A stretch of 64,000 nt of DNA, from assembly GCA_902584635.1 (NCBI GenBank), contig CACIAQ010000001.1:1-64000 (forward strand). Reading direction: 5' to 3'. The notes beneath the pieces were generated by a model. It saw nothing but the letters and a program-made list of their open reading frames with translations. It did not search any database and was not told the origin of the DNA. Origin of the DNA: an uncultured Alphaproteobacteria bacterium. Its GTDB lineage: Bacteria > Pseudomonadota > Alphaproteobacteria > Rhodobacterales > Rhodobacteraceae. Position 1 is the stretch's first letter, and the number at the start of each line of letters is the position of its first letter. A program made the position numbers and the translations under genes. Positions 9,309-11,288 of the stretch are shown here, piece by piece.

Positions 9309-9818
9309 TCAATCTAAAGACAGTCCAACTTTTATTTGAATTTTGGAGCCTATCTCATAATAGCGCCCTGTCAGGCTCGAACCAGTAAATCCATTCCAAC
9401 TGTATATCACTCTATAGCTTTCTACAGCATTTTGTTGGCTAACAACCTGTACAACTTCACATCTCTTTTCTGTGTTATAACCAACAACTTTCGTAGTTGT
9501 TTTTTGTTGTTCGGCCGCTACAACTCCTCCCATAACTGCCCCAACCCCAGCCGCATTATTATCATTTGTTAATGCTTTACCTATTAGGGCTCCAACCACC
9601 ATTCCTCCTAACACATCGGCTCCTGATGCGCCATTACCACTGACCACCTTCCCATAAACAGGTATTTTTATATTTCTGCAACGTGTCTCAGGTGTGTAAA
9701 TGTTTGTGCTTGAGTAAACTGGCTCAATTGACTGTACAGTGCCCGTGACATAATAAGCCTCTGCAAATAATGCTGAAAAAGAAAATAAAGCTAGGATTGT
9801 GGTAATTGTTCTTAACAT
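9309..9818 (-). CDS. Glycine-zipper 2TM-type outer-membrane/exported protein
   Basis: ORF 9309..9860 has an internal Met at 9818 that starts a signal peptide (MLRTITTILALFSFSALFAEA). Glycine-rich GGMVVGALIGKALTNDNNAAGVGAVMGGVVA. Confidence 0.7.
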   Translation of the reverse strand: MLRTITTILALFSFSALFAEAYYVTGTVQSIEPVYSSTNIYTPETRCRNIKIPVYGKVVSGNGASGADVLGGMVVGALIGKALTNDNNAAGVGAVMGGVVAAEQQKTTTKVVGYNTEKRCEVVQVVSQQNAVESYRVIYSWNGFTGSSLTGRYYEIGSKIQIKVGLSLD

Positions 9819-9867
9819 TTTGATCTCCGACAATGAACGTTTCCTTTTAATATACACCAAAAATATT

Positions 9868-9901
9868 AAAAAAAAAGCCGAACAAAAAATTGTTCGGCTT
9901 T
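9868..9901 (-). terminator. Intrinsic terminator, minus strand
   Basis: Perfect 12-bp inverted repeat AAAGCCGAACAA-AAAA-TTGTTCGGCTTT (9874-9901). On the minus strand it is followed by a T run (A run at 9868-9876 on +). Confidence 0.88.
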
Positions 9902-9966
9902 AGTCAACAGGGAGGTATGAACATGAAAATTTTTCATGCAATCTCTAAATTGCAATTCGCATACCA
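9868..9966 (-). ncRNA. Candidate structured small RNA or 3'UTR element ending in the intrinsic terminator
   Basis: Nested inverted repeats in the CaiB-downstream gap: outer stem GGTATG (9914-9919)/CATACC (9960-9965) encloses CATGAAAA-T-TTTTCATG (9922-9938) and GCAAT/ATTGC (9938-9953, sharing G9938). Minus-strand CCUCCC motif lies between these and the terminator. Confidence 0.35.
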
Positions 9967-9993
9967 TTTTCAATTAATAATCACAAATAAGGA

Positions 9994-11184
9994 TCAACGA
10001 CCCTTAATTACATTATTTCTAAGAAAGTTAAGAACTTCAGATTCGGTAAAACCTAAACCTAAAAGCACTGATTCAGTATGCTGACCAAGGGTCGGAGCTA
10101 ACAAACTATCGATCTTGTTAGTTACAGAGAAGCTAGCCGCTAACTTTGACTGTCGTATCTTTCCTGCAATAGGGTGTTCAGAAATTTTTATTATATCATT
10201 TGCAACTACTTGCTCATTCTTTATCATTTCTTTCCTTGTCAAAACAGGAGCGCAAGGAACGTCTTTAGCCGTTAGCAATTTCAACCATTCATCGGATGTT
10301 TTTTTCTTAAGCTCAGATTGTATCAATTCTAGTCTTTCATTTATATTCTGATGCCTTAATTCCGCCGTCAAAAACCTAGGGTCACTTAACCATTCTTTCT
10401 TATTAAACGCATCGCAAATATTAAACCATTCTTTATCGGACTGAACTGCTACAGAAATAAATCCCTCTTTAGTTTCATAAATTAGATCAATAAAACTCTG
10501 TGCGGTCTCCTTTTCAAGTTCGTCTCCAACAAAAGTATGCCCTCCCATATCTGAACCCCACAAAAAAGAAATTACAGTATCAAGCATTGATATTTTGACT
10601 TCCTGACCCTCACCTGTTTTTGCCTTATGAAATAGTGCTGCAGTTATAGCCTGAGCAGTAGCGAACCCAGTAAGCTTATCAGGAAGTATCGTTCGCATAA
10701 GCCTAGGTCTCTCTTCATCTGACCCAGCTTGTACAGTGGTTAGACCGGATAGAGCTTGAATGAGAGGATCATAAACTGGTTTATTCTTATAGGGGCCGGT
10801 AAAGCCGAAGCCACTTATTGAAACATATATAATATTAGGGCTTATCGCACTAACATCACTATATCCGAAACCTAACCTATCCATTACCCCAGGTCTGAAG
10901 TTTTGAACTAACACGTCCGCCGTTCCAATAAGCTTTTTAAGGATATTCTTTCCATCGTCCGTTTTTAGATTAATACACACAGATTTCTTATTTCTATTAT
11001 TATTGAGGTAAGCAGCTGAAATTCCAGACCTCTGAGTGCTAACAATCCTGGTATAATCTCCAACTGAAGTATTTTCAATTTTTATGATTTCAGCATCCTG
11101 ATCTCCTAGTATCATCGTTGCACTTGGACCTGAAATCATCGAAGTTAAATCGATTATTCTTATCCCCTTTAAAGCACCAGCCAT
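9994..11184 (-). CDS. CaiB/BaiF family CoA-transferase
   Basis: GIRIIDLTSMISGPSATMILGDQDAEIIKIE, GDYTR, NNRNKKSVCINLKTDDG, DVLVQNFRPGVMDRLGFGY. Start set at 11184 (MAGALKG); the longer ORF (to 11322) overlaps the divergent gene. Confidence 0.9.
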   Translation of the reverse strand: MAGALKGIRIIDLTSMISGPSATMILGDQDAEIIKIENTSVGDYTRIVSTQRSGISAAYLNNNRNKKSVCINLKTDDGKNILKKLIGTADVLVQNFRPGVMDRLGFGYSDVSAISPNIIYVSISGFGFTGPYKNKPVYDPLIQALSGLTTVQAGSDEERPRLMRTILPDKLTGFATAQAITAALFHKAKTGEGQEVKISMLDTVISFLWGSDMGGHTFVGDELEKETAQSFIDLIYETKEGFISVAVQSDKEWFNICDAFNKKEWLSDPRFLTAELRHQNINERLELIQSELKKKTSDEWLKLLTAKDVPCAPVLTRKEMIKNEQVVANDIIKISEHPIAGKIRQSKLAASFSVTNKIDSLLAPTLGQHTESVLLGLGFTESEVLNFLRNNVIKGR

Positions 11185-11288
11185 AAAAACCTCCAGAAAA
11201 ATATTTACACTAAAATATGAGCTGTTAACCTTGAAGATGCAACTTAAATTTAAGAAGCTCAAAAGGACATTTTTAGAAGAGTTTAAAC

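Follow-up and report, generated by a model that had tools for sequence, protein, structure and literature searches.

A probable small RNA of the SorY/SorX kind behind a CoA-transferase gene in an uncultured marine member of the Rhodobacteraceae

The locus lies on the minus strand of the window, as we call the whole stretch of 64,000 nucleotides that was analysed. The upstream gene encodes a CoA-transferase of family III (CaiB type; 9994–11187, minus strand; Pfam PF02515, E 2.3e-104), and the downstream gene, taken from the list of open reading frames, encodes a glycine-zipper-like small protein (9309–9818, minus strand) for which no Pfam family was found; this second gene is conserved beside the RNA in those members of the genus that were looked at. 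The gap between the two holds the probable RNA described here (9867–9965, minus strand), with a putative 5′ end about 30 nt behind the caiB stop codon. Read along the minus strand, its main elements are a 5′ hairpin formed by the 17-nt palindrome CATGAAAAATTTTCATG (CATGAA/TTCATG; 9922–9938), recognised by comparison within the genus and the family, the core UUCAUACCUCCCUGUUGACU (9902–9921) directly behind it, and a Rho-independent terminator (9868–9901) consisting of a 12-bp stem (9901–9874) and a U tract, probably the Hfq-binding 3′ end. The core resembles an anti-Shine-Dalgarno sequence, lies in a run of invariant columns, aligns with the SorY consensus apart from one missing base, and begins 77 nt behind the caiB stop. 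The initial annotation had also listed an outer stem, GGTATG (9965–9960) with CATACC (9919–9914), and a GCAAT/ATTGC hairpin (9953–9949 with 9942–9938), which shares one base with the palindrome.

All of these elements, including the palindrome, CCTCCCTGTTGAC and the terminator stem with its U tract, are located on the minus strand. The claim that the gap is structured beyond chance holds up: the minus-strand fold has a z score of −2.95, and only one of 200 shuffled sequences was equally stable. The plus strand folds even more strongly (z = −4.92), as can be expected, because inverted repeats fold on both strands; a terminator-like U tract is present only on the minus strand.

BLAST gave strong matches to the gap in 18 of the other 21 genus genomes. 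When 19 species, with the window as one of them, are aligned, the 26 bases UUCAUACCUCCCUGUUGACUAAAGCC show no variation in any column (26/26), whereas mean column identity is 87% across the caiB end and what follows it, 88% in the RNA's 5′ portion and 78% in the spacer past the terminator. The base pairs, counted on 18 sequences of the genus, fared differently. In the terminator 99.5% of the cells are paired, and the palindrome hairpin keeps six of the seven pairs counted. Five of the six pairs of the outer stem are kept, with a C·A mismatch in 13 of the 18 sequences; the stem is not maintained by compensation, and CATACC belongs to the conserved core. The GCAAT/ATTGC hairpin has at least one inner pair broken in all 17 relatives, its third pair being absent in 16 and its fourth in 14 of the 18 sequences. 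Thus, of the nested stems first proposed, the palindrome hairpin and the terminator are kept in the genus and the other two are not: only this sequence has the nested structure in full, whereas its relatives share the hairpin, the core and the terminator. There is almost no usable covariation within the genus, since the stems that are kept hardly vary. A stretch elsewhere in the window's own genome (G000:C8:35038) was considered as a second copy and rejected; it lies antisense within an alpha/beta-hydrolase gene and has no terminator.

No family had been assigned to the RNA before, and StsR/RSs0827, considered as its identity, was dropped once Rfam pointed to SorY/SorX, with which the locus belongs. 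The Rfam scan that had been proposed as a check gives no match in the window at gathering cut-offs, but does so in permissive mode. The best match is SorY (RF02651) with 35.0 bits and E 1.1e-5, against a cut-off of 111, followed by SorX (RF02784) with 26.9 bits and E 1.1e-4 (cut-off 46.6); mmgR/suhB (RF00519) matches weakly at 23.9 bits (cut-off 41) and BjrC1505 (RF02356) scores 22.1 (cut-off 50). The window core is aligned in both the SorY and the SorX match. On 18 sister loci, the SorX model exceeds its cut-off in five, at the motif; none of them reaches the SorY cut-off of 111, which is judged narrow for this reason.

The same arrangement recurs far beyond the genus. At least 118 stretches carry the pattern ACCTCCCTGTTG(N)ACT followed by NNRGCC, nearly all from Rhodobacteraceae among the matches listed, with Ruegeria, Paracoccus, Roseovarius and Gemmobacter among the genera; on the strength of these names, the family to which the genomes belong is taken to be Rhodobacteraceae. 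Of 298 family genomes, 273 have the RNA motif ACCUCCCUGUUG(N)ACU, mostly in one or two copies each, and almost none have its reversed control. Nearly every family copy has a hairpin of differing sequence just 5′ of the core, and at 118 loci the energies of these upstream hairpins have a mean z of −2.9 relative to simple base-composition shuffles. The window has both features of a broadly defined SorX/SorY-type sRNA, the core ACCUCCCUGUUG(N)ACU immediately before a terminator and a hairpin abutting its 5′ side. In 57 SorY-type loci, the pairs of hairpin and terminator show 82 changes on both sides against a shuffled mean of 36, a count that favours the structure, as this was named from the same 57 sequences; with the partners slid out of register, at most 52 such changes are seen. 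The hairpin 5′ of the core was not recovered when RNAalifold was applied to the MAFFT alignment. By the counts above it covaries in the family, and CATGAA/TTCATG is its counterpart in the window. Conservation and covariation in relatives, on which the initial annotation had staked its proposal, are therefore both found across the Rhodobacteraceae, and they support its view of a trans-acting minus-strand sRNA of about 90–110 nt with an anti-Shine-Dalgarno-like CCUCC motif.

A covariance model, R1, was built from the 57 Rhodobacteraceae loci, none of them from the window's genus. It matches the window significantly at 9867–9959 (53.1 bits, E 1.4e-10; next best 11.4 bits) and finds one copy in 20 of 22 genomes of the genus, one of these being weak. 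The base pairs in R1 are only those of the terminator and two short pairs, so the window score rests mainly on sequence. Among the family copies there are further ones (L270, L286, L293) which surfaced antisense in the target search described below, with cores of the UCCUCCCUGUUGGACU type replacing ACCUCCC; these are possibly a third type of paralogue.

Two chromosomal types occur in the family, one behind a LysR-type regulator gene and one behind an OmpR-type gene. The LysR-type loci, in some genomes located before purL, mostly have an RpoH-like CTTG…TANNT promoter; we take them as SorY-type, and LysR is the most frequent context of SorY-type loci across Rhodobacteraceae. The OmpR-context loci fit the published SorX locus (PMC6238624). 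The genus of the window has the RNA after caiB and not after either regulator gene, and the gene that comes after the nearest LysR homologue (54–56% identity) is cobS-like, with no copy of the RNA there; the locus of the window copy is therefore new. It resembles SorY in having a hairpin directly before CUUCAUACCUCCCUGUUGGACUU and then the terminator stem. It differs from SorY in that its core is one G short of the SorY consensus (GUUGACU for GUUGGACU), its hairpin is AU-rich and unrelated in sequence, it lies behind caiB and not LysR, and the promoter consensus is not recognisable. With SorX it shares the ACCUCCCUGUUG core, the terminator architecture and a position close behind a protein gene; however, that gene is of the OmpR type for SorX (PMC6238624) and a family III CoA-transferase in the window, and the SorX flank reads cgcACCUCCC, which the flank in the window (UUCAUACCUCCC) does not. 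The alpha-r8 RNAs mmgR/suhB of rhizobia have CCUCCCU…GACUU and then a terminator, but the mmgR core reads CCUCCCUAGACUU, and hosts and regulation are other (PMC7143759). BjrC1505 is similar in the CCUCCCUGUUGACUUGAGCC core and terminator at the loci found by R1, and differs in being a longer RNA (a model of 140 positions). The window thus very probably contains a genuine sRNA gene of the SorY/SorX kind, in an uncultured, AT-rich marine relative. We put the probability that the gap encodes a trans-acting sRNA of about 95–100 nt, homologous to SorY/SorX of Rhodobacter sphaeroides, at roughly 0.88. It would add a further member to a kind of sRNA that is already known; its relation to SorY is drawn from core, hairpin and terminator, and strict orthology would go beyond this likeness.

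How the RNA arises can be viewed in the light of the two known cases: SorY has its own promoter, and SorX is cut from a 3′ UTR by RNase E (PMC6238624). Upstream of the RNA no sigma-70 consensus promoter was found. A possible, weak promoter at 9967–9997 (minus strand), suggested by the genus alignment, consists of TTGATC, overlapping the caiB stop, and an AT-rich −10 region. At the position of the RpoH-type promoter the window has only this hexamer, which is TTGACT in most relatives, and the AT-rich region; at the corresponding position, CTTG-N19..22-TANNT occurs in 75 of 115 Rhodobacteraceae loci, with a shuffled mean of 0.9. A variant of the main reading, which leaves the pairing unchanged, is that the RNA would be SorX-like, derived from the 3′ UTR and processed from caiB mRNA by RNase E. 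The missing sigma-70 promoter is consistent with such an origin, as are the distance from stop to core, which resembles the OmpR–SorX arrangement (36–135 nt), and the fact that caiB still lies upstream in L025 and L026, which are divergent members. The better score of the SorY model (35.0 versus 26.9 bits), the context UUCAUACC, which is of the SorY type, and the TTGAC kept at the promoter position in most relatives speak for a gene with its own promoter, and we give processing somewhat less than even odds.

The gap might instead hold only the intrinsic terminator of caiB, with a 3′ UTR that is structured and has no function of its own; the start about 30 nt past the stop codon, the terminator at the end and the lack of a clear promoter consensus would agree with this. 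It is improbable, however: the 26-base core, most of which is not in the terminator stem, does not vary at all, against about 87% conservation in the stretch with the end of caiB, and hundreds of genomes have this core and a hairpin next to unrelated genes. On the opposite strand, AACAGGGAGGTATGAACATG resembles a ribosome-binding site and start, so that GGGAGG-TATG could begin a small protein; an open reading frame of 64 amino acids is listed there, and the frame is open in 14 of 19 genus members. But it is cut at 13–38 codons in the other five, much of it runs antisense to caiB, and roughly half of the loci in other Rhodobacteraceae have a sequence that does not allow the ATG, on which grounds the frame was rejected as a gene; the U tract and the covariation also fit the minus strand, and this reading is hardly credible. 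The sRNA of the SorY/SorX kind is the reading followed below.

By sequence comparison, the 5′ hairpin, the core (CAUACCUCCCUGUUGACU) and the terminator are conserved in both genus and family. SorY and SorX are described as controlled by alternative sigma factors and as interacting with Hfq, and their reported targets are a malate transporter mRNA and a spermidine transporter mRNA (PMC8307010; PMC7866481); in other alphaproteobacterial sRNAs, CU-rich anti-Shine-Dalgarno motifs pair with ribosome-binding sites (PMC7143759). By analogy, the invariant CCUCCCUGUU would be the pairing seed, and the RNA probably acts like SorY and SorX, its CCUCCCUGUU pairing to ribosome-binding sites with the help of Hfq. 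Whether it has a promoter of its own or is released from the 3′ end of the caiB transcript, the RNA would be bound at its terminator and protected by Hfq; through CCUCCCUGUU it would then pair with ribosome-binding sites of the GGGAGG type in certain mRNAs, which would block their translation and favour their decay by RNase E, probably under stress.

Two genes stand out in the search for AACAGGGAGG near an ATG, in which most matches were the antisense of the RNA itself. The leader AACAGGGAGG precedes the ATG of a flgF-like gene in the window genome, with a similar leader in G014, and that of a cytosine deaminase gene, translated in G002, G006 and G013, with the same leader in G009 and a similar one in G003. 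The predicted pairing energies are −21.1 kcal/mol (flgF-like) and −19.3 kcal/mol (cytosine deaminase), compared with −17.4 for the best of 64 gene starts in the window, the two leaders having been chosen for their match to the core. Complementary to the sRNA core are the ribosome-binding site AAAACAGGGAGGAATTACATG of cytosine deaminase (L246, L256, L265, G009:C40:2685) and TTAACAGGGAGGCATAATTAATG of the flgF-like gene (L236). This is suggestive only, and makes the two mRNAs candidate targets. Two other matches were discarded, one inside a coding frame (G000:C4) and one with no clear open reading frame behind it (G000:C81). Pairing of the takP- and potA-type ribosome-binding sites in this genome is no better than background, and the TRAP receptor gene starts of the window genome, at −12.8 to −14.9 kcal/mol, are inside the background. 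In the alpha/beta-hydrolase gene mentioned above, 14 bases (G000:C8:35053-35066; L002) are perfectly complementary to the sRNA core, which could be a target site or chance.

More widely in the class, R1 has matches of about 26–44 bits in 37 further genomes. Rfam names some of the loci fetched mmgR/suhB and some BjrC1505, and others are without a family; one core links SorX, SorY, mmgR and BjrC1505 across Alphaproteobacteria. The loci L316–L332, spread across the class, have CCUCCCUGUUNNACUU and a terminator in common, and those among them without an Rfam family include some with a GACGUCUCCCAGACGU hairpin. Viral contigs from IMG/VR (L157–L202, e.g. L159, L162, L164, L165, L185, L188 and L197) carry a hairpin, UACCUCCCUGUUGNACU and a terminator. 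In these contigs, which were selected by the motif itself and represent 12 lineages, a terminator lies behind 32 of 46 motif matches, compared with 55 of 2300 random positions, and several copies are located 11–55 nt behind major capsid or terminase genes. In four related isolated phages the capsid gene is followed by an ordinary terminator, and R1 finds no match. Tentatively, and with somewhat less than an even chance of being right, SorX, SorY, mmgR, BjrC1505 and several unnamed loci, along with the copy in the window, may form one anti-Shine-Dalgarno superfamily across Alphaproteobacteria (hairpin, CCUCCCUGUUNNACUU, terminator); phages would have acquired its seed repeatedly, at the 3′ ends of transcripts for capsid, terminase or other products, and so mimic the host RNA.

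The copy in the window lies at a different locus and falls below the cut-offs that Rfam now uses. It suggests that phototrophic Rhodobacter is not alone in having the stress-linked SorY/SorX sRNA, and that marine relatives with small, AT-rich genomes have retained it. An invariant core beside freely changing hairpins indicates which bases probably do the work, and provides a concrete seed with which targets may be sought in uncultured marine bacteria, and mimics in viruses.
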